DNA of 64,000 nt, taken from contig NZ_KV440950.1 in the NCBI RefSeq assembly GCF_001636405.1, positions 3,080,778-3,144,777 of the forward strand, read 5' to 3'. The DNA comes from Peribacillus frigoritolerans. Lineage in GTDB: Bacteria > Bacillota > Bacilli > Bacillales > DSM-1321. Every line of letters begins with the position of its first letter. Position 1 is the stretch's first letter. Of this stretch, positions 13,552-30,049 are shown in pieces. The position numbers and the translations under genes were made by a program. The notes under the pieces were generated by a model. The model searched no databases and was not told the DNA's origin. It saw only the letters and a list, made by a program, of their open reading frames with translations.

Positions 13552-13576
13552 ACTAATTCCCCCTCCCACTCTCATA

Positions 13577-13596: not shown

Positions 13597-13652
13597 TTAA
13601 TAAGTATATTAGATGAAAATGGAAAACGTCAACAGATTTTGCTAAAATATTA

Positions 13653-13666
13653 GTTACAAAGGTAGC
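13653..13666. promoter_or_regulatory. Operator-like palindrome, copy 2
   Basis: GTTACAAAGGTAGC matches copy 1 at 11 of 14 positions. It sits 25-38 bases before the regulator's start, suggesting autoregulation. Confidence 0.45.
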
Positions 13667-13690
13667 GACTACGGTTGTGTTGGAGGGTTT

Positions 13691-14518: not shown

Positions 14519-14789
14519 ATTTGTACATGTTCAATAATAAAAGCATCCTTCAAAGTGGCATGAATCCAGACAGGATTTATGCCTTTTAAAGTTAGGCACA
14601 GGTAAATTGAAGACAAACAAAGCATCTCGCCCCGGAACCCGGGTGATTGACGATACGGATAAATTTAAATATATATTAATATGGAAAAGGGTATAATGAA
14701 GAAGGAATAAGCCATTTTGGTAATGGGATTATCATATCGGATACATGTTTGATATCCGGATCACTAAGATAGAAGGAGAAATGATTCAT

Positions 14790-15236
14790 TTGAATAACAA
14801 GGAAACAAAGGGTATCGAGTTACCTGCCAACTATGAGGAATTAAAAAAATCTGCCAATCGCAAATCTAATTGGAGAGAACGTTTAGATGCAATCGAAGAA
14901 TTAGGTCAAGCAAAAAACAAACAAGTAATCGACATTCTCACACATATCATGAATAATGATTCTGTATATAAAGTTCAAGAGGCAGCCTACCGTCAATTGA
15001 AAAGTTTAGGCGAAGATGTGCAAATGCCAGCAAGGAAAAAGGGCGAGTTGATCAAAGGTTTGACCAAAATCTTAGTGAGGATCAAGAAGAGTTTACCTGA
15101 AAATCACACATATCATGAATTCAAAGACAAATTCCAGAAGATGAGAATGGATATATATGATACATATGAGGGTGAAAAAGGAGCAGACTTTGATAAATGG
15201 CTTGAAAATACGTGGTCAGCTTTATCGAAAAGATAA
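14790..15236 (+). CDS. Small HEAT-repeat-like cytoplasmic protein
   Basis: About 148 residues, mostly helical and charged. One HEAT-like repeat is visible: WRERLDAIEELGQAKNKQVI followed by a second helix ending in AAYRQLKSLGE. TTG 14790 has AAGGAG at 11 bases; ATG 14781 has the same site only two bases away, so the exact start is uncertain. It resembles conserved Bacillus proteins of unknown role; probably a protein-interaction module. A terminator follows. Confidence 0.78.
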   Translation: MNNKETKGIELPANYEELKKSANRKSNWRERLDAIEELGQAKNKQVIDILTHIMNNDSVYKVQEAAYRQLKSLGEDVQMPARKKGELIKGLTKILVRIKKSLPENHTYHEFKDKFQKMRMDIYDTYEGEKGADFDKWLENTWSALSKR

Positions 15237-15265
15237 AAGTTTTTAGAAAAATAAGCAATATGGAT

Positions 15266-15292
15266 AAAGGAGCAAAGTTTTTGCTCCTTTTT
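15266..15292 (+). terminator. Terminator after the HEAT-like gene
   Basis: AAAGGAGCAAA (15266-15276) pairs with TTTGCTCCTTT (15280-15290) around GTT; T run follows. Confidence 0.88.
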
Positions 15293-15409
15293 CTTATGTT
15301 TAAAACAAAGTTTTAGCTATGTTATGCTAATATATTTAAAAGAGGAAGTATTTGGCTGTTTGCTTTAATTTGAAAACTGATAACTACATACAAATTCAGG
15401 GGAGAAAAG

Positions 15410-16228
15410 ATGACAGATTATATTGAACTTTGGAAACAGGCAATGACAGATCATACAGGGAAGATACCTAACAGGCTAAAAGATGATGCTGCAGAAGAAG
15501 CTTTTTGGGCTTCCAAGGTTGCAATGAAAAAACAACATAAAGAGGACCCTTATGCAAAAATTGTGCAGCAAGAGTTATTGGCATTATTAAAACAGGAGGA
15601 TCATGTATTGGAAATCGGCCCTGGATGGGGCAATTATACATTTGATATTGCAAAAGAGGTCAGGAAGCTAACTTGTATAGATAGTTCCAAAAGCATTATC
15701 AGTTTTTTGGAATCCCAGGCAAACGAAAAAGGTTTCGAAAACATGGAGTTAATTCATGATAAGTGGGAAAGTGATAACAAAAAAGTCAAATATGACGTAG
15801 TATTTGGTTTTAATTGTTATTACCGAATGAGTGATATCGGTCATACCTTATTAAAAATGAATGATTCTGCAGCTCGTATAGCGATAGTAGGTATGACAAC
15901 CGGACCAGAAAAACCTCATTATATGGAATTGAAGCAACGAGGATATACGATCAATTTAAGAAGACGGGATTATATACACATCTTGAATGTTTTGTATCAA
16001 CTTGGAATACTGGCGAACTGTAAGATCGTTAAATTGAAAAGTAAAAAAATCTATTCCACCTATGAAGAAGCGATCCGAGATAATACAACAAAAATTCTTG
16101 ATGAACATTTTTCCTATGATGAAGTAAAAACGATCCTAAATAAATATGTGGCGGAAAAAGAAGGAGTTTTCGAATACGAATATCCGTTTCATGCAGCTTT
16201 GATGTATTGGAATCCAAGGTTAAAATAA
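15410..16228 (+). CDS. Class I SAM-dependent methyltransferase
   Basis: 272 residues. Motif I is VLEIGPGWGNYTFDI (about residues 66-80), with the acidic SAM-ribose contact following in LTCIDSS. The rest has the Rossmann-like layout of small-molecule methyltransferases. The N-terminal segment WKQAMTDHTGK occurs in metal/corrinoid-associated or unassigned methyltransferases; the substrate cannot be named. Monocistronic: its own GGGGAGA site and terminator at 16238. Confidence 0.85.
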   Translation: MTDYIELWKQAMTDHTGKIPNRLKDDAAEEAFWASKVAMKKQHKEDPYAKIVQQELLALLKQEDHVLEIGPGWGNYTFDIAKEVRKLTCIDSSKSIISFLESQANEKGFENMELIHDKWESDNKKVKYDVVFGFNCYYRMSDIGHTLLKMNDSAARIAIVGMTTGPEKPHYMELKQRGYTINLRRRDYIHILNVLYQLGILANCKIVKLKSKKIYSTYEEAIRDNTTKILDEHFSYDEVKTILNKYVAEKEGVFEYEYPFHAALMYWNPRLK

Positions 16229-16237
16229 CAATTTTAG

Positions 16238-16276
16238 TACCTTTTTCTCTGGCCCTTCAGGAAAAAGGTATTTTTT
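16238..16276 (+). terminator. Terminator of the methyltransferase gene
   Basis: TACCTTTTTC (16238-16247) pairs with GAAAAAGGTA (16261-16270), followed by TTTTTT. Confidence 0.9.
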
Positions 16277-16346
16277 CGGTTGGATATTCGCAAAATAATA
16301 GTAACAAGGCTACAAATATGCTGAAAAAACGGAGTGTGAATGATAA

Positions 16347-16487
16347 ATGAAAGAAATATCCGAAAAGAGATTTTGTGAAACTTGTAAAAAAGAGACAGTT
16401 CATACAGTAACTGAGGATGCATTGGAAATAGAATATTCATGTAATGAATGCGGTAAGCACCAGGATATTTTCAAGACATTTTTTTAG
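16347..16487 (+). CDS. 46-residue zinc-ribbon-like protein
   Basis: A short open frame with two CxxC pairs: FCETCKKE near residue 9 and SCNECGKH near 31, the usual spacing of a zinc ribbon. It begins with ATG 16347 and ends with TAG at 16485. GGAG lies about 12 bases upstream, a long but possible spacing. Such small zinc proteins are common in Bacillus. Function unknown. Confidence 0.65.
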   Translation: MKEISEKRFCETCKKETVHTVTEDALEIEYSCNECGKHQDIFKTFF

Positions 16488-16847
16488 AAACACAAATTTC
16501 ACTTGAAAATGGTCAGTAAAGTGAAGAAGTATCCAATTCATTCGCGAAAAAAATATCCAATATTTGTTATTTCTGAAAGCGATAAACTGCAAATGCCGTT
16601 AGTCTCAATCTAGTGTACTAAGAATTTTATAATACAAACAATGGTATACAAAAAAATAGAACTTTATTTTTAATCAGTGAATCGTTGTAAATCTAAAGCT
16701 CGAGACTCATGGTAGAAGGATTACTTTCATCATCGTAAAGAAGTGTTTTTACTATGGAAGGATTCCCTTTTATTATGTGAAAAGATGCTTGATGTTTTAT
16801 TAAAGGACCCAGATTTAAAATGTTCTATAATTCCTTCCAACGGCATG
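16488..16847. other. Intergenic region without a recognisable gene
   Basis: AT-rich, with frequent stops in all frames. No hairpin with a T tract stands out and no protein similarity was recognised. Confidence 0.5.
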
Positions 16848-16871
16848 TAATATGTGATATATTGCATATTA
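16848..16871. promoter_or_regulatory. Palindromic operator-like site before the GntR gene
   Basis: TAATATG (16848-16854) and CATATTA (16865-16871) form perfect arms around TGATATATTG, 30-53 bases before the GntR start. GntR/FCD regulators often bind such symmetric AT-rich sites at their own promoters. Confidence 0.5.
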
Positions 16872-16900
16872 TATATCTGTATTTTAAGGAGGTATAGCCG

Positions 16901-17596
16901 TTGAAGCATTCATATTCTTCACAAAAAATTAAACGTACGTCTGTACGTGAAGAAGCATACATGATATTGCGGGATTGGATTGTCCAGGGGATCCTGACGC
17001 CAGGCCAACAATTACGCGACAAAGAATTAGCCGATCAATTGGGAGTAAGCAGAACCCCTATTAGAGAAGCACTTTTAAGGCTTGAGGATGAGGGATTTGT
17101 CGAGACCAAGCCGAGCCGTTCAACTATTGTTTCCCCTATTCGATTCGAAGGGGGATTAAACATATATTCCCTTGTTTGGACACTGGAAAAGCTGGCTATG
17201 GAACAGGCTTTTGATTTCATTGAAGAAAGACACTTAATGGAAATGGAAGCCATCAATCATGAAGTGAAAAACGCAATCGACGAGGGAAATCAAATAGTGG
17301 CCGTCCAGAAAGATAATGACTTTCATTCCATTTACATCAATCTTTCAACAAATGATGAGTTGAAGCGGATTCTATCGGGACTCAAACAAAAACTTATACG
17401 AATGGAACTGTTTTATTTCAATCAGGTAAGTGATGTTCACTTTTCCGTTGATGAGCATGATCAGATCATACAGGCAATCAGGGGGGGAAATCTCACTATG
17501 GTGCTTAAGGAGATAGAAAAGAATTGGAAAGAAAGTTACTTTAGAATTCAAGCCCATACGGAACGTGTAAAAAGTGGGAAAGAAAAAAATGAATAA
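16901..17596 (+). CDS. GntR-family regulator, FCD (FadR-like) subgroup
   Basis: 231 residues. TTG start behind AAGGAGGT. The winged helix (about 15-80) contains DKELADQLGVSRTPIREALLRLEDEG, here cited as LGVSRTPIREAL for the recognition helix. The C-terminal all-helical FCD domain has conserved Asp and His residues (NDFHSIYI and DEHDQIIQAI) that bind metal or a carboxylate effector in this family. It overlaps the start of the DMT transporter gene by eight bases, so it probably regulates that transporter. Confidence 0.9.
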   Translation: MKHSYSSQKIKRTSVREEAYMILRDWIVQGILTPGQQLRDKELADQLGVSRTPIREALLRLEDEGFVETKPSRSTIVSPIRFEGGLNIYSLVWTLEKLAMEQAFDFIEERHLMEMEAINHEVKNAIDEGNQIVAVQKDNDFHSIYINLSTNDELKRILSGLKQKLIRMELFYFNQVSDVHFSVDEHDQIIQAIRGGNLTMVLKEIEKNWKESYFRIQAHTERVKSGKEKNE

Positions 17597-18505
17597 TGAT
17601 ACTTTAGTTGCTATATCACCTTCAAGAAATAAAGGGATTGCACTGGTACTGACTGGCGCTGCGTTATGGGGAGTGTCAGGAACGGCAGCTCAATATCTAT
17701 TTCAGCAGCAAGGTTTCAGTCCTGAGTGGCTCACTGTTGTACGCTTGTTGCTTTCTGGAATCATTTTATTGGTGGTCGCTTACAAGAATGAAAGACTGAA
17801 AGTTTTTGAGATTTGGAAAACTAAAAATGATGCGCTTCAAATTATCCTTTTTGCCATTCTGGGCATGCTCGCTGTTCAATACACATATTTTGCAGCAATT
17901 GAACATGGCAACGCAGCCACTGCCACTGTCCTTCAATACTTGGCCCCGGCACTGATCACTTGTTATTTAGCCATTCGTTCCAAACGTTTTCCAAGCATTA
18001 CGGTGAGCGTAGCTGTAATCATAGCGATTTTAGGCACTTTTTTGCTTGTGACGGGAGGAAGCATACGTACACTCTCCATTTCTGGGTGGGCAGTATTTTG
18101 GGGAGTAACATCAGCCTTTGCCTTGGCATTCTATACATTGCAGCCTTTTAAACTCCTTTCAAGATGGGGTTCAATGATTGTTGTGGGTTGGGGCATGTTG
18201 ATTGGAGGCATATGCTTTAGCATGATCCATCCCCCATGGGCATTTGAAGGCAAATGGACGTTACCTTCATTTTCAGCGGTTTTATTCATCATCATTTCGG
18301 TACGATCATTGCTTTTTATTTTTATTTGGAAAGTACAAAATTCATATCTGCTTCAGAGGTAAGTTTATTGGCTTCCGTTGAGCCATTATCCGCAACCTTA
18401 ATATCCGTTTTATGGTTGAATGTAACGTTCGGTTTTGCCGAGTGGCTCGGCACACTCTGCATTATAAGCACCATTACGATACTATCCATCGTAAAAAACA
18501 AGTAA
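17589..18505 (+). pseudogene. EamA/DMT-superfamily transporter with a frameshift near 18290
   Basis: A ten-helix drug/metabolite transporter read in two frames. The first (from ATG 17589) covers about eight helices up to SAVLFIII. The second continues from FGTIIAFYFYLESTKF through EPLSATLISVLWL to the stop at 18505. Joining them at ATCATCATTTCGG needs one extra T (ATTTTCGG) and gives a full-length EamA protein of about 305 residues. The break leaves a 258-residue truncated product. It is either a real inactivating deletion or a homopolymer sequencing error. EamA carriers export amino acids or metabolites. Confidence 0.85.
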
Positions 18506-18642
18506 TGTCATTGTAAACCGGGGAAAATCTGCTGTAGTTTATTTTTACTTGGCGATAAAAAACCATAGTCTACACTATAAGGGGATGGCCCGAACATTAA
18601 AGAAAGCTTTATTAGCATGGGTTATATCCATACACTTCTTTA

Positions 18643-18677
18643 AAAAGCAATTACACTGCATGTGAATTGCTTTTTTT
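18643..18677 (+). terminator. Terminator downstream of the DMT transporter
   Basis: AAAAGCAATT (18643-18652) pairs with AATTGCTTTT (18665-18674), T run to 18677. Confidence 0.85.
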
Positions 18678-18788
18678 GTATCTTACGGGTTTTACGCATA
18701 CATTGAGCCATTCAAAATTCGTTAATTAGACTGTTAAACTTATACAGCAACACTTATAGCCCATGTATTTCAACTAATAAAAGGAGAA

Positions 18789-18845
18789 ATGGCATGGAAA
18801 CCGAAATATAAATACGAGTATGGCCGCAATTTTTCAATGAAGTGA
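18789..18845 (+). other. Possible 18-residue peptide frame with RBS
   Basis: AAGGAG followed three bases later by ATG GCA TGG AAA CCG and a stop at 18843. Spacing is short and the peptide (MAWKPKYKYEYGRNFSMK) matches nothing recognised. Reported only because of the ribosome-binding site. Confidence 0.2.
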
Positions 18846-18910
18846 AATCATGAATTAATTCAATGAATACAGAATGGGCTTATTAAATAGCAATTGATCT
18901 TAAGACTAAA

Positions 18911-18954
18911 AATAGATCACAGACTGTTCGATTCCAATCAGGCTGTGATCTATT
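18911..18954. terminator. Hairpin, probable terminator
   Basis: AATAGATCACAG (18911-18922) pairs with CTGTGATCTATT (18943-18954), with A and T runs on either side. It lies just past the end of the minus-strand SDR remnant and may have been its terminator. Confidence 0.7.
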
Positions 18955-19013
18955 TTATTAACCTGCGTCCTATCTGTTATTGGAATGTCCTCAGTGAGAA
19001 AACTTTTATCGAT

Positions 19014-19188
19014 TTAAGGCTGTTGTCGAGATGGTCTTACAATAAACTCATTAACGGTAACATCTTTAGGTTGATTCAAAGCAAAACAGAATCATTTCCG
19101 CTATACGGGTAGGACTAATCGCAAAAGCATCGTATAATTCTTCGAACGGGCCTTTCAAATCTGTGTCAGTAATAGTTTGCGTCTACCG
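19014..19188 (-). pseudogene. C-terminal remnant of a short-chain dehydrogenase
   Basis: Reading the minus strand gives TITDTDLKGPFEELYDAFA, then ISPTRIAEMILF, then after a one-base frame change QPKDVTVNEFIVRPSRQQP and a stop at 19014. This is the typical C-terminus of YdfG/serine-dehydrogenase-like SDR enzymes (PxRIA...AI..P..VxVNEixxRPT). No Rossmann-fold N-terminus is left upstream, so the gene is both truncated and frameshifted. Confidence 0.65.
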
Positions 19189-19292
19189 ACCCAAATTAAT
19201 ATATTATTGCTATAAATGGGGATAAGCCGTTAACAAGGATTACTTGACCGAATAAGATGAAAGAAAATGTAATGACAACAGGGGGGAAATAC

Positions 19293-20054
19293 ATGAAAGT
19301 AGTAATCCTATGTGGAGGAAAGGGTACAAGGATGAGTGAGTTGACAAATGATGTACCCAAACCATTAGCCCAAGTAGGAGGCAAGCCTTTGCTGTGGCAT
19401 ATCATGAAACTATATAAACATTATGGTTTTGATGATTTTATTTTATTGCTTGGATATAAAGGAGATCAGATAAAGGAATACTTTATGAATTATGATTGGA
19501 AAAATCATAATTTTACATTAGATACTTCTACCGGAAACATTCAATTGTTGCAACATCCAGAAAAATGGAAAATCACCTTTCTCGATACCGGCTTAGAGAC
19601 CATGACGGGAGGCAGAATAAAAAGAGCAGAAGAATATATAGGAAACGATACCTTTATGCTTACCTATGCTGATGGATTGGCCAATATAAATTTATTGGAA
19701 TTATTGAAATTCCATAAAGGCAATGGGGCAATTGCGACCGTAACAGGAGTAAATAAAATTAGTCAATATGGTATTTTAACTGTTAATAAAGGAATAGCAG
19801 AATCATTTGCTGAGAAATCACGGAGTGAAGGGATTATTAACGGAGGTTTTTTTGTATTAGAACCTAAAGTATTCGAATACTTAACCGATCATCCCAATTG
19901 CATTTTTGAAGAAGAACCCTTGAAAAATCTGACACTAGATCGTCAATTGGCAGTGTATCTTCATGAAGGATTCTGGATGGGAGCGGATACCTATAAAAAC
20001 GTGTTAGAACTAAATGAAATGTGGAAGCAAGGTATGAATTCTTGGGCGAAGTAA
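19293..20054 (+). CDS. rfbF: Glucose-1-phosphate cytidylyltransferase
   Basis: 253 residues. It makes CDP-glucose from CTP and glucose-1-phosphate. The nucleotide-binding N-terminus VVILCGGKGTRMSELT, the PKPLAQVGGKPLLWHIMKLY segment and the later TGLETMTGGRIKRA and TYADGLANI are characteristic of RfbF. ATG 19293 follows GGGGGGAAA; an upstream in-frame ATG at 19257 lacks a site. First gene of a sugar-nucleotide cluster with RfbG, so the product CDP-glucose is used locally. Confidence 0.93.
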   Translation: MKVVILCGGKGTRMSELTNDVPKPLAQVGGKPLLWHIMKLYKHYGFDDFILLLGYKGDQIKEYFMNYDWKNHNFTLDTSTGNIQLLQHPEKWKITFLDTGLETMTGGRIKRAEEYIGNDTFMLTYADGLANINLLELLKFHKGNGAIATVTGVNKISQYGILTVNKGIAESFAEKSRSEGIINGGFFVLEPKVFEYLTDHPNCIFEEEPLKNLTLDRQLAVYLHEGFWMGADTYKNVLELNEMWKQGMNSWAK

Positions 20055-20083
20055 CGAATTAAGATGGAAGGCAAAGAATGTGA

Positions 20084-21067
20084 ATGAATAGTATGAATCC
20101 ATTTTGGAAGGATCGGAATGTTTTAGTTACAGGATGTACAGGCTTTCTGGGAAGGTATTTAGTAAATGAATTGACAAAATCAGGTGTAAATGTAACAGGA
20201 CTTATTCGAGGGAAAGGTTTGAACTCCTCTTCTTTTCACGAGGACCTATGTTCAAACATCAACTATGTTCACGGAACATTAGCGGATCTCCCAATGATCC
20301 AAGAGGCACTGGAGAAATATGAAATAGATACTGTTTTTCATCTGGCTGCACAATCCATCGTGGGGACAGCGAATCAGAATCCAGTTCATACTTTTGAAAC
20401 CAATATACGTGGTACATGGAACCTATTAGAAGCTTGCCGGCATCATCCGGTAAAAAGAATAATCATTACATCAAGTGAAAAATCATATGGTCATCATACA
20501 CGAGTCCCACTTGATGAAACCTTCCCCCTACAAGGGAGACAACCATATGATGTTTCAAAAAGCTGTGCTGACCTAATAGCCCATACCTATTTTTATACTT
20601 ACAAACTGCCTGTATGTATCACAAGATTCGGAAATGTATACGGGGGTGGAGATTTAAACTTTAATCGGATCATACCTCAAACCATCCGCTCTATTATTCA
20701 TCATAAATCCCCCGTAATAAGGAGTGATGGCACTTTTGTTCGCGACTATTTCCATGTTGAAGATGCCATACATGCCATGATGCTATTGGCAGAAAAAATG
20801 GAGGAATTGGAGATTGCGGGAGAAGCGTTTAACTTCAGTAATGAAAAACCGTTAAGTGTATTGGATGTCGTAACTAAAATATTGACTGTTATGAATAGTG
20901 ATTTGCATCCAATCATTCTAAAATTAGCAAACAACGAATCAAAACAGCAATTTCTGTCTGCCCAAAAAGCAGAAGAGGTATTAGGCTGGAAACCAATCTT
21001 TAGTTTTGATGTAGGTTTAAAGAGAACAATAGAATGGTATAAGGAATATTTCCGATTAGGAGAGTAG
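20084..21067 (+). CDS. NAD(P)-dependent sugar-nucleotide epimerase/reductase
   Basis: 327 residues, extended SDR fold. The dinucleotide site is [12 protein letters not shown]. The catalytic Ser lies in TSSEKSYG and the Tyr-Lys pair in [19 protein letters not shown] and DYFHVEDA complete the family pattern. Placed between rfbF and rfbG, it probably converts the CDP-4-keto-6-deoxyglucose made by RfbG, by epimerisation or 4-keto reduction. No rfbH-like 3-dehydrase is in the cluster, so a 3,6-dideoxy sugar is not supported. Exact product unknown. Confidence 0.88.
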
Positions 21068-21106
21068 AATTGAACAATTTGAGGAATGAAAAGAAGGTGT
21101 TAGTTT

Positions 21107-22201
21107 ATGAATAAAGATTTTTGGTATGGAAAAAAAGTACTTGTTACCGGTCATACCGGATTTAAAGGTTCCTGGTTATGTTTGTTGCTTTATTCATTAG
21201 GCGCTAAGGTAACAGGATATAGTATGAGGCCCCCAACTTCCCCCAGTTTATTCGAATTATGCCGTATCGACCAGCTGATACCTACCCGATATGCGGATAT
21301 TAGGGACATCAACACATTACAATCCACTATTTTAGAACTAATGCCTGAAATTGTCATTCATATGGCAGCACAGCCATTAGTTAGAGCCTCCTACTTAAAC
21401 CCAGTTGAAACCTATGAAATTAACGTAATGGGAACCGTTCACTTACTAGAAGCCGTCCGAAATGCCATCCACAAGGGCATTCCCATCAAAGCCGTGATTA
21501 ACGTAACCACTGACAAATGCTATGGAAATAAGGAGTGGTTTTGGGGTTACCGGGAAAACGATGTGCTCGGCGGATATGATCCATATTCCAGCAGTAAAGC
21601 CTGCTCAGAATTAGTCACTGAAGCTTATCGAAAATCATTTTTTAATTTGGAGGATTATGAATCGCACGGAGTAGGGGTCGCAACTGCAAGAGCCGGTAAC
21701 GTCATCGGCGGTGGTGATTGGGCGGTTGATCGCTTAATACCGGATTGCATTAAAACCTTGTTAAGGGGAGAAAAAATTAAAATTAGAAATCCTTATGCTA
21801 TTCGGCCGTGGCAGCATGTCCTCGATCCGTTAAGTGGGTACCTATTATTGGTAGAGAAATTATATAGTGATGGAAAGCAATATTCCGAAGGCTGGAATTT
21901 TGGTCCAGACGATGATAGCGGAAAATCCGTTGAATGGGTTGTGAAGAGTCTTTGTTCCAAATGGGGAGAGGATGCCACATATGAAATTGAAAACGGACGT
22001 CATCTACATGAAGCCCATCAATTAAGACTCGATTGCTCAAAAGCGAAATTCAAATTGGGGTGGTATCCGAAATGGAATACCGAATGTGCAATTGACAAAG
22101 TCATTGAATGGACACAGGCCTATCAATCTAATTCTGACTTGATGGCTGTTTGCATGAAGCAGATTGATGAGTATCGTAATATTGATATGAAATCTATTTA
22201 A
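21107..22201 (+). CDS. rfbG: CDP-glucose 4,6-dehydratase
   Basis: 364 residues. Converts CDP-glucose to CDP-4-keto-6-deoxyglucose using bound NAD. VTGHTGFKGSWLCLLL is the RfbG-type nucleotide-binding loop. VTTDKCYGNKEW and YDPYSSSKACSEL hold the catalytic Thr/Asp/Lys and Tyr-Lys residues, and ARAGNVIGGGDWAVDRLIPD is diagnostic of this enzyme (longer than usual epimerases). It follows the epimerase by 39 bases, one operon. Confidence 0.95.
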   Translation: MNKDFWYGKKVLVTGHTGFKGSWLCLLLYSLGAKVTGYSMRPPTSPSLFELCRIDQLIPTRYADIRDINTLQSTILELMPEIVIHMAAQPLVRASYLNPVETYEINVMGTVHLLEAVRNAIHKGIPIKAVINVTTDKCYGNKEWFWGYRENDVLGGYDPYSSSKACSELVTEAYRKSFFNLEDYESHGVGVATARAGNVIGGGDWAVDRLIPDCIKTLLRGEKIKIRNPYAIRPWQHVLDPLSGYLLLVEKLYSDGKQYSEGWNFGPDDDSGKSVEWVVKSLCSKWGEDATYEIENGRHLHEAHQLRLDCSKAKFKLGWYPKWNTECAIDKVIEWTQAYQSNSDLMAVCMKQIDEYRNIDMKSI

Positions 22202-22278
22202 CTCATAACATTCAAAATTTTTCAACTGTAGTTATATAGGAACTAATTTATCTTAAAAAAAGAAAATGAGGTGCTTCA

Positions 22279-23190
22279 ATGGAAAATGTTTATTGTTCCA
22301 TTTTATCGAAAGGCAGGGTATACCAATTCCTTGCCTTGGTTTTTTCCTTGCAAAAGATGTCAAAGGAGGATTTTGATCTATTCGCACTTTGCATTCAAGA
22401 TGAGACGTATAACTTATTGGAAAAATTAAATATTAAAAATCTTCACGTCGTTCATGAAAAAGAACTTGGAGAAGAAGTTCTAGCTTTAAAAACAGAAAGA
22501 AAGATCCATGAATACTGTTGGACGTTAAAACCTATTTTTTTAGAACATCTTATGATGAAACATCATTCGGCAAGTCGATTAACCTATCTTGATTGTGATT
22601 TATATTTTTGGAATGACCCTTCCATTATATTCAAGAATCAACCAGATTGCTCGGTCCTATTGTCTCCGGAAGAAAAGTACAACCCCTCTTGGAGTCCCGG
22701 CTTTATGCATTATATGCAAAAAATAACGGGAGTTTATAACTCTGGATATATAAGCTTCAAAAAGGATGAATTTGGTCTATCTTGTTTGCAGTGGTGGAAA
22801 AAGAAATGCATTGAACGATGTGAAATTGTACCTAGTGAGGGGTTTTTTGGTGATCAGAAATATTTAGATCAAATGCCAAAGTTATTTTCCAATGTTTGTG
22901 ATATCACAACACCAGGAGTCAATATCGGTATATGGAATGACCTGAAATTTCAATTCCATGAAGATGATGGTGCAGTTTATGTAAATAAAGATAGGCTTAT
23001 CTTTTATCACTTTTGCGGTTTGAGAATTGTGAATAAAAATAAAATCGAGTTAATATTTAACCAGAAAAGTGTTCCATTTATCTTTGAGTATTATCAACAG
23101 AAGCTCCAGGAGGCAATCGATTTGGCAGAAAAAATTGATCCCCCTTTCAACGGATATGCATCTGAAGAAGATTTGAAACGGTATTGGTAG
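22279..23190 (+). CDS. Putative nucleotide-diphospho-sugar transferase (GT-A fold)
   Basis: 303 residues. The DxD-like sugar-nucleotide/metal motif is visible in LTYLDCDLYFW near residue 105, following KPIFLEHLM. SPGFMHYM and GVYNSGYISFK resemble GT8/GT77-like transferases. No membrane segments. Cluster context suggests transfer of the local 6-deoxy sugar, or of an adjacent sugar, onto a glycan. Acceptor unknown. Confidence 0.8.
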   Translation: MENVYCSILSKGRVYQFLALVFSLQKMSKEDFDLFALCIQDETYNLLEKLNIKNLHVVHEKELGEEVLALKTERKIHEYCWTLKPIFLEHLMMKHHSASRLTYLDCDLYFWNDPSIIFKNQPDCSVLLSPEEKYNPSWSPGFMHYMQKITGVYNSGYISFKKDEFGLSCLQWWKKKCIERCEIVPSEGFFGDQKYLDQMPKLFSNVCDITTPGVNIGIWNDLKFQFHEDDGAVYVNKDRLIFYHFCGLRIVNKNKIELIFNQKSVPFIFEYYQQKLQEAIDLAEKIDPPFNGYASEEDLKRYW

Positions 23191-23269
23191 CTGAATGGGT
23201 ACTCGCAATTTGTCAATAATGGCTTTGGATGTATAAATGATTCCCATCACAAATGAAGAAGGTGAAATG

Positions 23270-24481
23270 ATGAAAGCAAGTATTATTATCCCATCCTATA
23301 ATGCAAAGGAACGGTTATATTTAAACCTGCTCTCTCTATCGTACCAAGACTACCCACATCAGGATTTTGAAGTGATTGTGATCGACAATGGATCAACAGA
23401 TGACACGATTGATATGCTATCTAAATTCGAAGCAAAATTCCCTCTTATAACATTACGAGTGGATCAGAATAGGGGAATCGCCTATGGGAGGAACCTAGGC
23501 ATATTAAAGGCTAACGGAGATATTCTGATTTTTCATGATAGTGATATGATCGCGTCAAAAGATTATGTAAGAAAGCATATCGAGGCACATCAAGAAAAAA
23601 ACAAGGTGGTTTGTGGATTATGTTGGCTGAGAATATACAGTTTTTATTATGAAAATTTTAAATCCTTTCACCAACAGCTATTTAAAAGGTTAAACAACCC
23701 ATATACTGGGGTTCAACAAGTAAACGATATTGTCTATCAACTAATATCTGAAAAACAGATCAAAGACGGCTCGTTTATGAACTATAGCTTCGAATTTGAT
23801 AACGTTATTCTCTTTTCCTATTTAAAACAAACCCTTCAAACGTATAAGGAGAATTTAACGGGTTACCATTTTCCATGGAGGTATTTTCTAACAAATAACG
23901 CTTCAGTTGAACGAAAAAGGGTTTTGGAAATTGGTTTATTTGATGAAAAAAATGCAAATTGGGGATTTGAGGACTTTGACTTAGGCTATAGGCTCTACAA
24001 ATCCGGTAGTGAATTTTCTGTCAGACACGATATTATAAGCGCACATCAAGAACATGAGCGAAATTATACGACCAAAGAAATTAAAGCAAGTACTGATTAC
24101 TGGTTTGAAAAATATAATGAAATTGATTATATAGATATGCTTTTAAGCCTGCTATTTGACATCGCTTCTATTTTTCCACCCATGGAACCCATTATCGAAT
24201 CAACGCATTTAAACAGTTTGATGGAAGAAATATACGAAATACGTAAACTCTCAAAGTACAGTGATCTATTAGATTTTTTTCGGGAAATGCTACAAATAGC
24301 CAAAAAGAAATATTTGAAACAAGAGGATCAAATTCAATTAAATGATTTGGGTAAAAGTATAGATTTTAATATTGTTTTCCAAAAGGTAAACGAAATTCAT
24401 GAAAAATTTGGCATGATTCATTTTTATAACGCCTTTTTTGCATTAAATAATTATATTTCAAATAGTTTTTCGACAAAGTGA
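23270..24481 (+). CDS. Family 2 glycosyltransferase (paralogue A)
   Basis: About 403 residues. GT-A N-terminus ASIIIPSYNAKERLYLNLLS, then VIVIDNGSTDDT and the DxD-type HDSDM. The acceptor-side motif is FDEKNANWGFEDFDLGYRL (ED catalytic pair). Start ATG 23270 aligns with the paralogue at 25554; an adjacent ATG is at 23267. The C-terminal 130 residues are helical and of unknown role. It overlaps the following kinase region by spacing typical of one operon. Confidence 0.88.
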   Translation: MKASIIIPSYNAKERLYLNLLSLSYQDYPHQDFEVIVIDNGSTDDTIDMLSKFEAKFPLITLRVDQNRGIAYGRNLGILKANGDILIFHDSDMIASKDYVRKHIEAHQEKNKVVCGLCWLRIYSFYYENFKSFHQQLFKRLNNPYTGVQQVNDIVYQLISEKQIKDGSFMNYSFEFDNVILFSYLKQTLQTYKENLTGYHFPWRYFLTNNASVERKRVLEIGLFDEKNANWGFEDFDLGYRLYKSGSEFSVRHDIISAHQEHERNYTTKEIKASTDYWFEKYNEIDYIDMLLSLLFDIASIFPPMEPIIESTHLNSLMEEIYEIRKLSKYSDLLDFFREMLQIAKKKYLKQEDQIQLNDLGKSIDFNIVFQKVNEIHEKFGMIHFYNAFFALNNYISNSFSTK

Positions 24482-24495
24482 AAGGGGTTTTCAAC

Positions 24496-25446
24496 ATGGA
24501 CTTTCCATTAGGCGACCTCCAATCAATATGCAGGGAATTTGGAATTGGAGATCTGATAGCAGTTGAAGGCCGCCTTGGTGGGTTTGTAAATACGAATTTA
24601 AAAATCAAAACAAAAAAAGGCCTTTTTGTCATTCGAATCTATAGAGAAAAGTTTGATCCACAACGTATTCACTATGCACATGATATCATTTCGATTCTCC
24701 GTTCATCCAATGTACCAGCATTAATGCCTATACAAAATAAATTTGAAAACTATTTTTCAACATACAATGAACATTTTATAGAAGTTACTCCGTTCGTACA
24801 GGCTAATCATTTCCAGTGGATTCCAAACCAAGCCTACTTCAGCGGCATCATGCTGCGAAAAATGCACCAAACACTAATGCATGTTAAAAAAGATCCTCCA
24901 CCAAGAAAGTCTATATACGATTATTACAATTGGAGTGTGTTGGACGATATGTCTAAATTACAGCCACTTTACAACTGGACGAATCAGAACATATTGGAAA
25001 TCTATCAAATAAATGAATTGATTCTGAATAATTCCCGAAATTTAGAAAGCGCTTCCATAGATCTACCTACAACGATTTTACATGGCGATTGGCACCCCGG
25101 GAATCAGCTTTACCAAAAAAACAGTGAAGTGTGCTGTATATTGGACTTCGATTCGATTCAGCGAGGGGAATGTGTCTTTGATGTGGCCTACGCACTTTAT
25201 TTTTACTTATTAAAAGATAAAAGCGAAGCATTTGGGAAGCCTTTTTTGCAAGGTTATGGCGCATTATCTGAACAAGAACAAATGGTACTCCCTGTTATGA
25301 TTGCTAAACTTGGATTGTTTTTTGGGAGTTTTATTAATAAAGGGGATTTAGAGTTTTCAAAGCAAAAGGAATTAGTGGAATGGGTACTCTCCCATGAAGG
25401 TATCAAAACGCTGCAAGATATGGTCAGACCGGATATTGCACGCTAA
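24496..25446 (+). CDS. APH-fold phosphotransferase (small-molecule or sugar kinase)
   Basis: About 316 residues. The kinase-like catalytic loop is LHGDWHPGNQL and the metal-binding motif LDFDSIQRG, as in aminoglycoside phosphotransferase/choline kinase-like proteins. ATG 24496 follows AAAGGGG at 8 bases; a GTG at 24478 overlaps the previous stop. Lying between two paralogous glycosyltransferases, it more likely phosphorylates a sugar or glycan component than an antibiotic. Substrate not known. Confidence 0.85.
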   Translation: MDFPLGDLQSICREFGIGDLIAVEGRLGGFVNTNLKIKTKKGLFVIRIYREKFDPQRIHYAHDIISILRSSNVPALMPIQNKFENYFSTYNEHFIEVTPFVQANHFQWIPNQAYFSGIMLRKMHQTLMHVKKDPPPRKSIYDYYNWSVLDDMSKLQPLYNWTNQNILEIYQINELILNNSRNLESASIDLPTTILHGDWHPGNQLYQKNSEVCCILDFDSIQRGECVFDVAYALYFYLLKDKSEAFGKPFLQGYGALSEQEQMVLPVMIAKLGLFFGSFINKGDLEFSKQKELVEWVLSHEGIKTLQDMVRPDIAR

Positions 25447-25553
25447 CACTGGAATTTTGCTTAATCTTAAACTAGTACATCCCAATTGACATTATCCTTT
25501 TTGTTTTGTCATTTTGTTAGGATTTATAAGCTACATTAGCGAGGTGTACCTGT

Positions 25554-26783
25554 GTGAAAGCAAGTATTATTATTCCGTCTTACAATGCATGTGAACGTCT
25601 TTATTATAATCTGCTATCCCTAAATCTTCAGGACTATCCCCATGAGCAATTTGAAGTCATTGTCATCGATAATGGTTCTACTGACAGTACTGCCAAAATG
25701 CTATCGGAATTTTCAGCGAGTTTCCGACTTGAAACTGTTAGAGTAGCTGAAAATAAAGGTATTGCATATGGAAGAAACCAGGGTATTTCAAAAGCGACAG
25801 GAGATATACTCATTTTTCATGACAGTGATATGATTGCTGAGAAAAATTTTGTCAGAAAACATTTGGAAGCACATCATAATGAGAATACGGTAGTTTGCGG
25901 GTTCATTTGGAAGGAGATTTTCACCTATTATTACAAAAATTTTGAGGATTTCAGAATCTCCGAATTTGATAAAGTAAAAGATCGATTTCACTACCAATCC
26001 AAGGATTTCGATCAAGATATACTTCAATTGATTCCTCCAGAAAAGATCACCGATGGCAGTTTCATAAAATATAGCTTCGGAAAAGAAACGCCCTTTATCG
26101 ATTCTTTAGAAAAAGTCATTCAAGAATTTGGATCAGACCTAAAACGATACCATTTGCCTTGGAGGTTTTTTATCACCAATAATTCATCAGCACCTAGAAA
26201 AAAAGTAATAGAAGTCGGCATGTTTGATGAAAAGATTGTGAATTGGGGTTTTGAGGACTATGACCTTGGGATTCAGCTATATAAGTCTGGTTGTAAATTT
26301 AAACTCTCGAATATTGTAAACGTCCATCAGGCACATCCAAAAAATTACATGAAAGGTGAGGCCCTTAAAAGCTTTGAATATATATGTAATAAGTATAACG
26401 ATATTAGGCATATTGATATTGTTCTCGCTTGCATATGCACATTTTTGCGTGGTTCCCTATCCATTGACGAAAAAGGGTTGAACCATATCGTGGAAGATCT
26501 TTATATTCTTCAAGAAATAGGTAAATACAATAGACTGTTGAGTTATTATCTAGAACTCCTCCAAATGAAAAGGAAATCCTATTTTAAAATGGGAGATAAA
26601 AAATTAAAAGAAGCGCCAAGTGCTGGCATGGAGGAAAGTGAACTAGAGCAGCAGATCAATGAATTGTTGGAAACATATGAAATACGACATTTTGCACATG
26701 CACTTTTAGCCTTGCGAAGGGATTTAAAAAGGAATTTAACAGAAGGAGACAGAAGTTTTAGAGGGCACTATAAATCCGAATAA
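25554..26783 (+). CDS. Family 2 glycosyltransferase (paralogue B)
   Basis: 409 residues, GTG start behind GAGGTG. It shares the layout and most motifs of the gene at 23270: ASIIIPSYNACERLYYNLLS, VIVIDNGSTDSTA, FHDSDMIAEKNFVRKH and NWGFEDYDLGIQLYKSG. The two plainly arose by duplication, including their helical C-terminal tails. It ends the cluster; a terminator follows at 26832. Confidence 0.88.
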   Translation: MKASIIIPSYNACERLYYNLLSLNLQDYPHEQFEVIVIDNGSTDSTAKMLSEFSASFRLETVRVAENKGIAYGRNQGISKATGDILIFHDSDMIAEKNFVRKHLEAHHNENTVVCGFIWKEIFTYYYKNFEDFRISEFDKVKDRFHYQSKDFDQDILQLIPPEKITDGSFIKYSFGKETPFIDSLEKVIQEFGSDLKRYHLPWRFFITNNSSAPRKKVIEVGMFDEKIVNWGFEDYDLGIQLYKSGCKFKLSNIVNVHQAHPKNYMKGEALKSFEYICNKYNDIRHIDIVLACICTFLRGSLSIDEKGLNHIVEDLYILQEIGKYNRLLSYYLELLQMKRKSYFKMGDKKLKEAPSAGMEESELEQQINELLETYEIRHFAHALLALRRDLKRNLTEGDRSFRGHYKSE

Positions 26784-26831
26784 GGTAAAGGTTGACTAGT
26801 AAAGTGATTATGTCATTTTCCATATCTGATC

Positions 26832-26858
26832 AAAGAGAGGGCACTACGCTCTCTTTTT
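26832..26858 (+). terminator. Terminator of the CDP-sugar cluster
   Basis: AAAGAGAG (26832-26839) pairs with CTCTCTTT (26849-26856), with a T run. Confidence 0.85.
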
Positions 26859-26930
26859 CGCATGATTGCCGGGTGTAAGATCACGGAGGGCACGCGTAGA
26901 TTACTGGTCCTTTGTTCGAACTTATATGAT

Positions 26931-27356
26931 CTAAGTTAGAACTAAACCTGTTTCTCCGTTTTCGGTGGAAAAGAACGGTGTTCCTAGCAGCTTTAATTTA
27001 TCTTCAGATATTCCTACTCCTGTATCAACTCACTTTTATATGAATCTCTCCATTTTTATAATAATGTTCAATTCTAATTTTCCCCTTGCCTTGAAATTCA
27101 TCCATTGCCTCAATTGCATTCTTCAACAAGTTAAAAAAGGGTTTTAGGAATAAATTACTCTTTCTAAATTTCTCTCTGTATCACTTAGAGCCCATTCTAT
27201 TTCCACCTTATAAAGTTTTTCTTGGAATAAAAACAAAATAGAAGCTAACCCCTTACATAAATCACTGGGAACAAAGGGTTCCTCATGTAAATCGGTTTAG
27301 AAACGTGTAATAGATTTTGCAGAGCTTCTAATGCTTTTTTCTAATTTAGCTTCTAT
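26931..27356 (-). pseudogene. Decayed sensor histidine kinase (C-terminal part)
   Basis: The minus strand, read across two in-frame stops and small frame changes, gives KLEKSIRSSAKSITRF, TDLHEEPFVPSDLCKGLAS, LLKNAIEAMDEF, GEIHIKVS (stop) VGISEDKLKLLGTPFFSTENG and TGLVLT before a stop at 26931. These are the N, G1, F and G2 boxes of a Bacillus sporulation-kinase-type ATPase domain. Everything upstream, including the phospho-accepting His, is lost. Not functional as a kinase. Confidence 0.75.
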
Positions 27357-27487
27357 CGTATCAAAATAAGGATGAGTTTAGCTCTTTATTTATAAAAAAC
27401 TATAACTAAATAATTTTGATATTTTCTTATCCAACACAGGGGTTCGATTGATACATATTCAGGTGTAGCTAAGTTAAAATTTATTAG

Positions 27488-27529
27488 TCAAAGAAAAAAT
27501 ACAAAAGGGCACCTCTAAAGTTGCCCTTT
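27488..27529 (-). terminator. Terminator downstream of the receiver-like gene
   Basis: AAAGGGCA (27504-27511) pairs with TGCCCTTT (27522-27529). On the minus strand a T run follows, the complement of the A run near 27492-27499. Confidence 0.75.
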
Positions 27530-27673
27530 CGAACTATTATTTACTACTGTCCATTGGGAATTAAAGTAAATTAAGGTATTTATATGATTCTGAATCCAAT
27601 TTTACCAATCCAATAAACTGGCTTAAAAAAGAATAATCATGGATGAAATGTAACAGAGAGGTAGCGAGTTAGT

Positions 27674-28045
27674 TTACCTTATTTCTATATAATGTTGCAG
27701 AACCCTTGGAGGGAAGAATTTGAGGGGCAATGGTCGTAAGGATACGATAATGGCAGGGGGCATAGTTAAATTCCGTTGTGCTTGCTTTAAACAGTTGTAC
27801 ATCGCTTTACCGCCAACTGAATTGGCAGAGTGAATAGTAATGCGATTAGCAAATAGTTTTTCTTTCACCATCATTTGAACAAGCATAGAACCATTCCTGG
27901 TTTTATTTAATAAATCATGGTCCAAAGAGAGATGTTCAATATCAAAGTTTTGCAATAGCTCTAAACATTCGTCAATAGTCTCGACTAACACATAGCCATC
28001 GGGTGCTTTCCGATAGTCATCCAAAAAAACGCTGATTTTCTCCAT
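27674..28045 (-). CDS. Stand-alone receiver-like domain protein (cyclic-phosphate-processing receiver type)
   Basis: About 123 residues. ISVFLDDYRKAPDGY at the N-terminus and HLSLDHDL in the middle match the small receiver-like family proposed to process cyclic phosphates in RNA-repair contexts (cPPRD). ITIHSANSVGG forms the later strand. ATG 28045 follows AAGGAGTGAAGGA. No kinase or RNA ligase is adjacent, so its role is not evident. Family assignment is from motif resemblance. Confidence 0.7.
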   Translation of the reverse strand: MEKISVFLDDYRKAPDGYVLVETIDECLELLQNFDIEHLSLDHDLLNKTRNGSMLVQMMVKEKLFANRITIHSANSVGGKAMYNCLKQAQRNLTMPPAIIVSLRPLPLKFFPPRVLQHYIEIR

Positions 28046-28363
28046 TTCCTTCACTCCTTTGCTTATGCAAGTGTGACTAAGAAAAGTCAATTAAACCCAA
28101 GAAAATATATGGTTTTATCTTTTAAGTCTAACACAATAAGGTAAGAAGGGGGCATATTCGACGTTTAATACTACTATACGACAGCCTTTTTAATAAATAT
28201 TCTATATAATGATCGTCGTGTTCTTCAACTAACGGACCTTTACTATAAGAAGGAACTGTTACTGAGCAATCCCTTGTGAATATAGTACAAAACATCCACT
28301 TATAAGTTAACGATTGTAATAATTTGGGTAAAAGGTAATATCTTGATTAAAAGGAGAAGTGAT
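28046..28363. other. Intergenic region
   Basis: AT-rich with stops in every frame; contains the promoter-proximal regions of the flanking divergent genes, but no site stands out. Confidence 0.4.
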
Positions 28364-28543
28364 ATGTTACATCCAGACGAGATTTACCTTATATTAAGGG
28401 ACAAAACGCTGCTGTTGGAGTTAAAGGAACAAATTAATGACTATCATATTTCCTACTTATCAATGATTAATGAACAGCTTTCATTGATTGATAATGCTTT
28501 AAAAGTATATAACATTGATTCCTTCACTATGTCAAAAGGATAA
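28364..28543 (+). CDS. 59-residue hypothetical protein
   Basis: ATG 28364 lies seven bases after AAAAGGAG. The protein is helical and charged (LELKEQINDYH, NEQLSLIDNALKVY). Its size and Leu-rich pattern loosely recall Spo0E-like phosphatases, but the SQxLD motif is not present, so no family is assigned. A terminator follows at 28598. Confidence 0.6.
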   Translation: MLHPDEIYLILRDKTLLLELKEQINDYHISYLSMINEQLSLIDNALKVYNIDSFTMSKG

Positions 28544-28597
28544 AACCAACATTTACTTATATAGGGGATCAATTTTTTAACTATAATTAACCAGCTT

Positions 28598-28625
28598 AGC
28601 GCCCTCTGAGAAAGGCGCTTTTTTT
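28598..28625 (+). terminator. Terminator
   Basis: AGCGCC (28598-28603) pairs with GGCGCT (28614-28619), followed by seven T. Confidence 0.85.
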
Positions 28626-28731
28626 ATTGGGCAAAATAGTGTCAATTAATAGGCCAAGGTTAAAAAATCACTTAGTTGATAATTTTAGAGTTGTAATTCC
28701 ATATTGGGTTAATCATATTGCAAGCGGAACT

Positions 28732-29520
28732 TTATTTTTCACCTACAGCATTGTGAGGCTGGTCTTTTTCATTTGGATAAGCAGCAATTTTTGCTTCTTC
28801 TCTAATGCTTTCAAGTGTAGCCGCAGCCATCTGCTCTCTAATGCGAATGATATGGGCATTCATTAGTTGCTTGGCTTTGTCCGCGTCCTTTAATGCGATG
28901 GAATAGTAGATTTCTTTATGTTCTTGAAGCGTTTCTTGAAAATGACCTGGTTTTGCGAAACGATGCCGTCTGGTGGCACGAATCGTATTTTTCATTTGGT
29001 CACTTAGAGTATGAACCAATCCAGCATATATGGAATTATTTGTGGCTTGTGCAATACTATGGTGAAAAAGCAGATCTGCTCGCAAGCCTAATTCTTCATC
29101 ATGTTCCGAGCGTGCCATTTCTTCTAGAGCCTTAAGGATATTTTGTAAATCAAGAGAGTTTGCTCTTTGCGCAGCAAGAAAAGCACACTCCGTTTCAATT
29201 ACTCGACGGACTTCAAGCATTTCATAGACCATGTTGTCCTCAGCCTTGATGATTGAAGTGGATAGCTGTTCGATTAGTGACTGAACGTCAGATTGTCTGA
29301 TAAATGTTCCATCACCTGGTCTAATCTCAATGACTCCGTTAACCTCCAATACTCGAAGGGCTTCCCTGATTGATGTTCGACTCACTTTAAAACGGTTGGA
29401 TAATTCGCGTTCAGGCGGTAATTTATCTCCAGGTTTCAATTCACCGCTATTAAAAGATTCCTTAATTTGATTGAAGATCATTTCGTATACTTTGGGAGAT
29501 TTAACTGGTATTGAATCCAT
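28732..29520 (-). CDS. FadR/LldR-type GntR regulator (FCD domain)
   Basis: About 262 residues. Winged helix (about 10-75) with PGDKLPPERELSNRFKVSR and SIREALRVLEVNG, then an FCD effector domain with metal-ligand residues in FHHSIAQATNN and EHKEIYYSI. M at 29520 fits the family start; an ATG-like start at 29559 would add 13 residues. It is divergent from a D-lactate-dehydrogenase-like operon. Two identical TTGGTTAGACCAA sites lie in the shared region, the classic TTGGT...ACCAA motif of FadR/LldR/LutR-type repressors. The effector is probably a hydroxyacid. Confidence 0.9.
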   Translation of the reverse strand: MDSIPVKSPKVYEMIFNQIKESFNSGELKPGDKLPPERELSNRFKVSRTSIREALRVLEVNGVIEIRPGDGTFIRQSDVQSLIEQLSTSIIKAEDNMVYEMLEVRRVIETECAFLAAQRANSLDLQNILKALEEMARSEHDEELGLRADLLFHHSIAQATNNSIYAGLVHTLSDQMKNTIRATRRHRFAKPGHFQETLQEHKEIYYSIALKDADKAKQLMNAHIIRIREQMAAATLESIREEAKIAAYPNEKDQPHNAVGEK

Positions 29521-29672
29521 TACTTTCTTCACATCCTTCCATGACAACCCTAACAACATGCTGGTACGACTATTAGTGGAATCATTCTAACAAGCATTCA
29601 TTTATGAAGCAAGGGGATAATCAGCAATATTAAAATTAAAATAAATAACTGTTGAAACAATCTGATATTTTA

Positions 29673-29687
29673 ATTGGTTAGACCAAT
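29673..29687. promoter_or_regulatory. FadR-type operator 1
   Basis: ATTGGTTAGACCAAT, a perfect inverted repeat (TTGGT-TAG-ACCAA core), about 153 bases upstream of the regulator start. Likely autoregulation. Confidence 0.8.
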
Positions 29688-29835
29688 ATTGTAAAAATAT
29701 AATGTCTAAATTCAATCAAATTACGTTCACATAGCTATTAAAGGTCATTTGGGTTTTGTCATAAGGATGAAAATCCCCTATAAATATTGAGAATAAAGCA
29801 TTTTTTTATGGGGAAAAGTATAAAACGGATAATTG

Positions 29836-29863
29836 TTGAAAAAGTCAAAAAATTTAGTATAAT
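29836..29863 (+). promoter_or_regulatory. Sigma-A promoter of the D-lactate dehydrogenase/BASS operon
   Basis: TTGAAA at 29836 and TATAAT at 29858, 16-base spacer. Transcription should start near 29870, inside operator 2. Confidence 0.75.
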
Positions 29864-29866
29864 GTA

Positions 29867-29883
29867 AATTGGTTAGACCAATT
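29867..29883. promoter_or_regulatory. FadR-type operator 2, overlapping the transcription start
   Basis: AATTGGTTAGACCAATT, perfect palindrome, immediately after the -10 box. A bound repressor would block initiation. Identical core to operator 1. Confidence 0.85.
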
Positions 29884-30049
29884 ATCCGATAAAATGGAAA
29901 CGATATCTTATTAAGCTATTAAAGAGAGGGAAACCATCTCTTGATACTACAGTTGAAGAATTGTAGTAGAAACTAATTCTTGATATAGGTGCGACCAAAG
30001 TTTTTGATATGACAAAAACGGATGTTATAGCAGAAAGAAGGAGAATAGA

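Follow-up and report, generated by a model that had tools for sequence, protein, structure and literature searches.

What does a cluster make that holds two related sugar-nucleotide enzymes side by side, and how do the two divide the work? This question is raised by positions 19293-26783 of a 64,000-nucleotide stretch of DNA from the soil bacterium Peribacillus frigoritolerans (RefSeq assembly GCF_001636405.1, contig NZ_KV440950.1; hereafter, the window), where seven intact genes with open frames lie on the plus strand. Judged by sequence comparison, the cluster is mostly ordinary; the exception is a short-chain dehydrogenase/reductase (SDR) in which a catalytic residue, kept in close relatives, has changed where a second such enzyme was added. 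We read the cluster as an acquired and rearranged operon of the yfnHGFED type that would build a surface glycan, most likely on the spore, with RfbG as the dehydratase and the SDR perhaps shifted in function (probability of about 0.6 for the reading as a whole). The genes are:

19293..20054, plus strand: RfbF/YfnH, glucose-1-phosphate cytidylyltransferase (TIGR02623; 63-65% identity to YfnH orthologues)
20084..21067, plus strand: YfnG-type SDR, called an epimerase in the initial annotation, with S-E-K (E132) and Yx3K (60-62% to YfnG orthologues)
21107..22201, plus strand: RfbG, canonical cytidine diphosphate (CDP)-glucose 4,6-dehydratase (TIGR02622), with T-D-K and Yx3K
22279..23190, plus strand: P4, YfnF-type glycosyltransferase of 303 amino acids with a predicted GT-A fold and a DxD motif (D105, D107; 43-47% to YfnF orthologues)
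23267..24481, plus strand: GT2 A, YfnE-type glycosyltransferase with a C-terminal tail (PF00535, 99.5 bits; 47% to the YfnE orthologue of locus L084, whose best match is GT2 A)
24496..25446, plus strand: APH-fold kinase (PF01636, 64 bits)
25554..26783, plus strand: GT2 B, YfnE-type glycosyltransferase (PF00535, 103 bits; 47% to GT2 A)

The initial annotation, made from this DNA alone, had named RfbF, the SDR, RfbG, two GT2 enzymes and the kinase; all of these genes are real, on the plus strand and open, and the seventh, at 22279-23190, had been left unmentioned. For RfbF, the start at 19293, which has a good ribosome-binding site before it, is most likely the correct one and is favoured over a longer start at 19257; the start of GT2 A was placed at 23267. 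A search of titles and abstract openings of open-licence PubMed Central papers returned no literature on this cluster.

The closest counterparts were found in five Bacillus-like loci (L083-L087, 20-kb stretches), in which the order is RfbF, SDR, P4, GT2 and a P4 paralogue. Compared to these loci, the window proteins are 63-65% (RfbF), 60-62% (SDR), 43-47% (P4) and 44-47% (GT2) identical, and the identity for the P4 paralogue is 27-33%. Five further Bacillus-like genomes carry RfbF-SDR-P4-GT2 in 4-kb loci, and in an order-wide sample of 397 genomes the YfnG-type SDR was found at E 1e-60 in ten genomes besides this one, namely these two sets of five, all of one genus. Upstream of the operon in L085 there is a P450-reductase fusion and a sulfatase-fold, lipoteichoic acid (LTA)-synthase-like gene; in B. 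subtilis, yetO and the LTA synthase yfnI are described as flanking yfnHG (PMC6255753). It is because of this yetO-yfnI-like neighbourhood, together with gene sizes, that we call the five loci Bacillus yfnHGFED. Consistent with that label, the RfbG model picks up the B. subtilis control at E 1e-60 and misses it at 1e-90, and no canonical RfbG was found at E 1e-90 in the five Bacillus-like genomes.

By these sequence relationships, the cluster is a rearranged variant of the Bacillus yfnHGFED operon, in which RfbF corresponds to YfnH, the SDR to YfnG, the 303-amino-acid gene product to YfnF and both GT2 enzymes to YfnE. The two share, as judged on the Bacillus-like genomes, an RfbF, a YfnG-type SDR, a YfnF-type glycosyltransferase and a YfnE-type GT2 in the same order and on the same strand, and neither has RfbH. 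The Peribacillus version differs in that RfbG is inserted between the G and F genes and that an APH kinase and a second YfnE are added, whereas YfnD at the 3' end, or any second P4-type gene, is absent from the window cluster; it also lies at another chromosomal site and has no SigK-like site upstream. The two GT2 enzymes are indeed paralogous, as had been proposed, being 47% identical over 393 columns that include most of the C-terminal tail. This is about the same as the identity of each to YfnE (44-47%); thus, the duplication is apparently an old one. GT2 B is the best match of the YfnE orthologues in four of the five Bacillus-like loci (44-46%).

The cluster lies on a cassette that was probably acquired horizontally, since three sister genomes (L129, L130 and L131 in genomes G026, G030 and G003) lack it at this site. 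In these, window position 19143 joins position 27671 within about 20 bases, with matching flanks. The features that define the insertion are:

19144..27670, no strand assigned: acquired cassette carrying the seven genes, empty site in L129, L130 and L131
18997..19183, minus strand: at the left cassette edge, remnant (3' part) of a short-chain dehydrogenase gene, 91% to the end of an intact 246-amino-acid gene (PF00106) at the same site in genome G022 (L128)
26934..27376, minus strand: histidine-kinase remnant at the right edge, 93% to part of the 356-amino-acid histidine kinase (PF02518, PF00512) that is intact at this site in G022 (L128)

In that fourth genome, G022, the site is occupied by other genes, namely a short-chain dehydrogenase, a cupin, a MerR-type regulator and a histidine kinase, and the window retains remnants of the first and the last of them at its two cassette edges. 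The whole cluster is present in 2 of 36 genomes of the genus, this genome counted; pieces of the region 13600-30000 occur in 32 of 36. The second copy, in P. frigoritolerans RU293 (L028; L092 of G028 was excluded as its duplicate), is 96-100% identical at the amino-acid level, and the ratio of nonsynonymous to synonymous substitution rates (dN/dS) between the two copies is 0.04-0.39 across the seven genes. Nearby, an EamA-type transporter gene (17574-18362, plus strand) has an apparent frameshift, encoding 262 amino acids compared to 310 in L128 and 314 in L028.

The SDR had been taken for an epimerase, and as a family name this does not hold. Its best NCBIfam model is that of CDP-glucose 4,6-dehydratase (TIGR02622; 205 bits, below the cut-off of 278), and three YfnG-type relatives are likewise below this cut-off (191-224 bits). 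In a tree of 51 sequences, 13 YfnG-type SDRs are grouped (support 99/98) and adjoin 24 RfbGs (100/100), the two being joined at 100/99 versus 14 other SDRs; the program warned of long branches, including L029 and the outgroups, and 3 of 17 outgroup SDRs were left out. On sequence grounds, the YfnG-type SDRs are thus a sister clade of RfbG. Since the window RfbG falls inside the RfbG clade and the window SDR inside the YfnG-type clade, the possibility that the SDR is a recent copy of its neighbour was rejected. PHROGs place the SDR in a nucleotide-sugar epimerase family, and a phage collection contains one weak relative (30%).

For CDP-glucose 4,6-dehydratases, Table 1 of PMC8987622 gives the fingerprint [ST]DK...Yx3K, with Asp as the acid, and the same motif for inverting UDP-N-acetylglucosamine dehydratases. 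The Asp is present in 24 of 24 RfbG rows and in two solved CDP-glucose dehydratases. Among the YfnG-type relatives, S-D-K is found in 37 of 37: 12 of 12 non-Peribacillus rows, six of six additional ones (L144-L149) and all 19 of the viral rows scoring 200 bits or more, the latter including near-duplicates (L150/L151 and L153/L154). Locus L119, which has broken frames, was read for the motif only (S-D-K) and was excluded from the dN/dS, tree and column comparisons. Of 17 weaker viral rows, 13 have D-K, and the four without it (L183-L186, 62-125 bits) resemble other SDRs.

Gene neighbourhoods agree with a dehydratase ancestry. RfbH requires CDP-4-keto-6-deoxyglucose as its substrate. Locus L029 contains the end of RfbF, an SDR, a second SDR, an acetolactate-synthase-like enzyme and RfbH (731 bits, cut-off 423), with no RfbG on its 9.3 kb; therefore, the YfnG-type SDR beside RfbH is most simply the dehydratase. 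The relatives would, most simply, act as stand-alone dehydratases, although a dehydratase elsewhere in those genomes is possible. The IMG/VR contigs (L150-L186) show YfnG-type SDRs recurrently and often beside RfbH-like genes: an RfbH-like neighbour (42% or more after rounding) occurs in 10 of the 19 viral loci, RfbF-like genes in three and RfbG in none, the flanks being 4 kb or shorter and many contigs ending early. Among all 37 viral loci the only RfbG is in L176, a canonical RfbG-RfbH-RfbF locus that is not of the YfnG type. The viral loci that pair a YfnG-type SDR with RfbH-like genes seem to be CDP-dideoxysugar genes on viral or mislabelled DNA, with this SDR replacing RfbG.

Against this background, both Peribacillus copies of the SDR stand out, since they have S-E-K (E132) with YDVSK and depart from the fingerprint. 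Glu at position 132 occurs in none of the 37 relatives counted and was seen only in the Peribacillus copies. Compared to 25 sequences (14 of them viral), the Peribacillus SDR breaks 4 of 41 invariant columns (D132E, Y143L, Y224H and I286S). When 19 other groups were subjected to the same 41-column comparison, 16 broke none, one broke one and two broke two, so that Peribacillus breaks the most of the 20; five of the 19 viral rows (L151, L154, L161, L164 and L177) were omitted. Although the viral rows share no more than 38-46% identity with the window SDR, they break fewer of these columns. Versus 11 relatives, the Peribacillus SDR differs at 10 of 76 invariant columns. It should be noted that Y224H alone says little, because RfbG has His at that column. 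The SDR dN/dS of 0.28 between the two copies, based on few differences, argues against decay. D132E coincides with the presence of RfbG in the same operon, and no other locus read has a YfnG-type SDR next to a canonical RfbG; genomes G234 and G352 hold both at distant places.

The remaining nucleotide-sugar genes constrain the product. RfbG scores 490 bits to TIGR02622 (cut-off 278), with TDK and YSSSK in agreement with the fingerprint. The absence of a 3-dehydrase that had been noted earlier extends beyond the cluster, as the best genome-wide match to the RfbH model reaches 100.5 bits versus a cut-off of 423, the model being the one that recovered the real RfbH of L029. With no RfbH, the expected product is of the CDP-6-deoxyhexose type and not a 3,6-dideoxyhexose, as previously supposed. 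The view that such genes are unusual in Gram-positives was not supported. Canonical RfbG is present in 43 of 398 sampled Bacilli, this genome included (E 1e-90). Of the 43 places that lie outside this genome, 22 RfbF-RfbG loci were viewed, each with about 9.5 kb per side (L100 has only 2.4 kb on one side); since eight belong to a single genus (g64), the 22 cannot be counted as independent cases. An RfbH of more than 50% identity to that of L029 is lacking in 18 of them: it occurs in four, two have weaker pyridoxal phosphate enzymes and 16 have none. The missing rfbH was therefore rejected as a special feature. Another SDR lies within 3.5 kb in 17 of the 22.

The first two steps are shared with the CDP-3,6-dideoxyhexose pathways (RfbF-RfbG-RfbH), from which the Peribacillus cluster differs in having no RfbH, nor the genome one above cut-off. 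A closer parallel is the CDP-6-deoxyhexose pathway of Campylobacter HS:41, for which PMC12369002 describes a cytidylyltransferase and a CDP-glucose 4,6-dehydratase, followed by C4 reduction with no RfbH step; a separate NADPH-dependent C4 reductase leads to CDP-fucose from the same keto sugar. HS:41 has this dedicated reductase, a 3,5-epimerase and a mutase (PMC12369002), whereas in the Peribacillus cassette only the YfnG-type SDR could be the reductase. Because the cassette has no dedicated C4 reductase gene, the SDR is a candidate for this role. In the proposed scheme, RfbF would produce CDP-glucose and RfbG would convert it to CDP-4-keto-6-deoxyglucose; the SDR, most likely poor at dehydration, would come next and reduce the 4-keto group, yielding a CDP-6-deoxyhexose of the quinovose or fucose type. 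The YfnF-type glycosyltransferase and the two YfnE-type GT2s would then transfer sugars onto a coat or crust acceptor, and the kinase would phosphorylate a sugar or the glycan.

The surface in question is suggested by homology. Five of the seven genes have their match among four genes of yfnHGFED, which makes a role at the spore surface likely. In B. subtilis, yfnHGF are reported to be under SigK and GerE and yfnED under SigE and SigK (PMC517825); yfn mutants are described as having altered crusts, and the spore surface as containing quinovose (PMC7439481). Besides this genome, the kinase was found in one of 398 Bacilli at E 1e-20, on a plasmid of Alicyclobacillus dauci. There, two annotated glycosyltransferase genes precede the kinase, and the closer of two Coat_F genes is situated about 3.4 kb upstream of it. 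From yfn homology and this kinase relative, we consider a spore role of the cluster fairly probable. Thus, of the alternatives in the initial annotation, a spore or a surface glycan, homology points to the spore surface, while the sporulation promoter that it advised looking for was not found. The genome encodes a Coat_X protein, but nothing in it matches the CotZ family model; the scaffold of the B. subtilis crust is thus present only in part.

Several of these results weigh against our reading, and we consider them together with the competing explanations. The two Peribacillus copies represent one lineage. RfbF scores 281 bits to TIGR02623, under the cut-off of 300; its function is still likely because the L085 orthologue, 63% identical, passes at 302.6 bits. 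The change from Asp to Glu is conservative and Glu may still serve as the acid; a Glu acid is listed for GDP-mannose 4,6-dehydratase, although one motif position further on (PMC8987622). Accordingly, the SDR may still be a CDP-glucose 4,6-dehydratase, with RfbG as a redundant second one and with the C4 reductase encoded elsewhere in the genome or the product remaining a keto sugar. The Tyr/Lys pair and the motif Lys are retained, and the identity of the SDR to YfnG (60-62%) is near that of RfbF to YfnH (63-65%), which, with the dN/dS value, argues for no general loss of constraint. Conversely, D132E and three more changes fall at positions invariant in 25 other sequences, and the juxtaposition with RfbG recurs in no other locus read. 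We regard this explanation as possible, at somewhat worse than even odds. The specific proposal of a handover, with dehydration passing to RfbG and the SDR now serving a later step, perhaps reduction of the 4-keto sugar, is equally tentative on the sequence evidence. The fuller scenario, in which the SDR changed its Asp after RfbG joined and gained a new step (reduction or epimerisation) on the CDP-4-keto-6-deoxy sugar, so that a pathway arose from two sister dehydratases, and in which the kinase may add phosphate to a spore glycan, is doubtful as a whole. It is improbable that the SDR is a 4-epimerase acting on CDP-glucose, so that the cluster would supply both a CDP-hexose and a CDP-6-deoxyhexose to three glycosyltransferases: the presence of several glycosyltransferases and two SDRs would fit, and solved relatives include UDP-glucose 4-epimerases, but the tree joins the SDR to RfbG, and GalE is listed without an acid-base pair beyond the triad (Table 1 of PMC8987622), whereas here the Lys is kept and Glu stands at the acid position.

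The adverse points on location come mainly from promoter analysis, in which sites were matched to a SigK consensus and scored versus 300 single-base shuffles. There was no SigK-like site at up to one mismatch in 18700-19293 (594 bases upstream), and 225 of 300 shuffles did as well as the window. Perfect sites precede yfnH in L083 and L085 (0 and 1 of 300 shuffles as good), two of the five Bacillus-like loci. The other three, L084, L086 and L087, have weaker sites (32, 218 and 213 of 300), these imperfect controls having 1, 2 and 2 mismatches. A SigK-like site before GT2 B is reached by only 26 of 300 shuffles of that short stretch; however, the density of such sites does not exceed the background (4 in the 7.5-kb cluster versus 49 along the same strand of the 64-kb window). 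For SigE, even the best-matching sites are unremarkable. A rival reading has a capsule or a secreted polysaccharide of growing cells as the product. That explanation gains from the lack of an upstream SigK-like promoter and from an SDR relative outside Bacilli, on Sphingomonas plasmid p02, whose locus is one for polysaccharide export and includes Wzz and flippase genes. It is weakened by the absence of any recognised flippase, polymerase or export gene from the cassette proteins, as judged by Pfam and NCBIfam matches and comparison with other loci. Among the loci examined, yfn genes are the nearest counterparts of RfbF, the SDR, P4 and the GT2s, and the kinase relative is near Coat_F genes; we consider a capsule unlikely. 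For general promoters, a sigma-70-type scan of 18400-28000 gave 32 sites versus a mean of 37.3 in shuffles, which is no excess, and the same scan found no terminator-like site on the plus strand.

The functions of the yfn genes were described as unknown in 2020 (PMC7439481). The tree, the motif and the RfbH neighbours tie YfnG to CDP-glucose 4,6-dehydratases, so that YfnH-YfnG can be put to the test as a source of a CDP-6-deoxy precursor. The Peribacillus cassette can be viewed as a natural experiment, in which a YfnG with an altered acid-base pair adjoins a true RfbG, and it could show how few changes redirect a dehydratase.

P4 and the kinase were characterised further. P4 has no Pfam or NCBIfam match at E 0.001, and its DxD is invariant in 10 aligned sequences. 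Its predicted structure has a mean predicted local distance difference test (pLDDT) score of 72.6, with residues 247-303 poor, and was matched to GT-A enzymes (xyloside xylosyltransferase 1, LARGE1, glycogenin and B. subtilis SpsA) with a Foldseek probability of 1.00; the query template modelling (TM) scores are modest, 0.33-0.56 among the 50 matches listed. In PHROGs, P4 has no match and the kinase a single weak one. The kinase keeps the APH catalytic motifs HGDWHxxN and DxD, shared with the Alicyclobacillus relative; its structure is predicted poorly (pLDDT 53.3). Membership of the CotS family, whose members are also APH-like, was rejected: although both are kinases tied to spores, the window kinase is outside the five genome matches to the CotS model (TIGR02906). 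It was rejected as a homoserine kinase (PRK05231) as well, with 86 bits versus a cut-off of 271. Directly after the Alicyclobacillus APH kinase (L133, 10971-11516) there is a small protein with a weak, below-cut-off protein-kinase match.

Related genes were also observed in other settings. Locus L119, on a plasmid record of Stutzerimonas stutzeri (NZ_CP078511.1), contains a yfn-type operon (RfbF 62%, SDR 65% over 151 columns and P4 44%); its frames are broken, the record carries a Gram-negative plasmid label, and contamination or a poor-quality assembly may be involved. In L109 (Bacilli, 11456-16156), four P4-type (YfnF-like) genes come after RfbF-RfbG and share 24-27% identity with the window P4. 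Distant YfnE-type GT2 genes (28-35%) are present on 16 Priestia plasmid records, including pBM600, and in one of the two Priestia megaterium plasmid loci viewed (L134, the other being L132), nucleotide-sugar genes adjoin the YfnE-type GT2.

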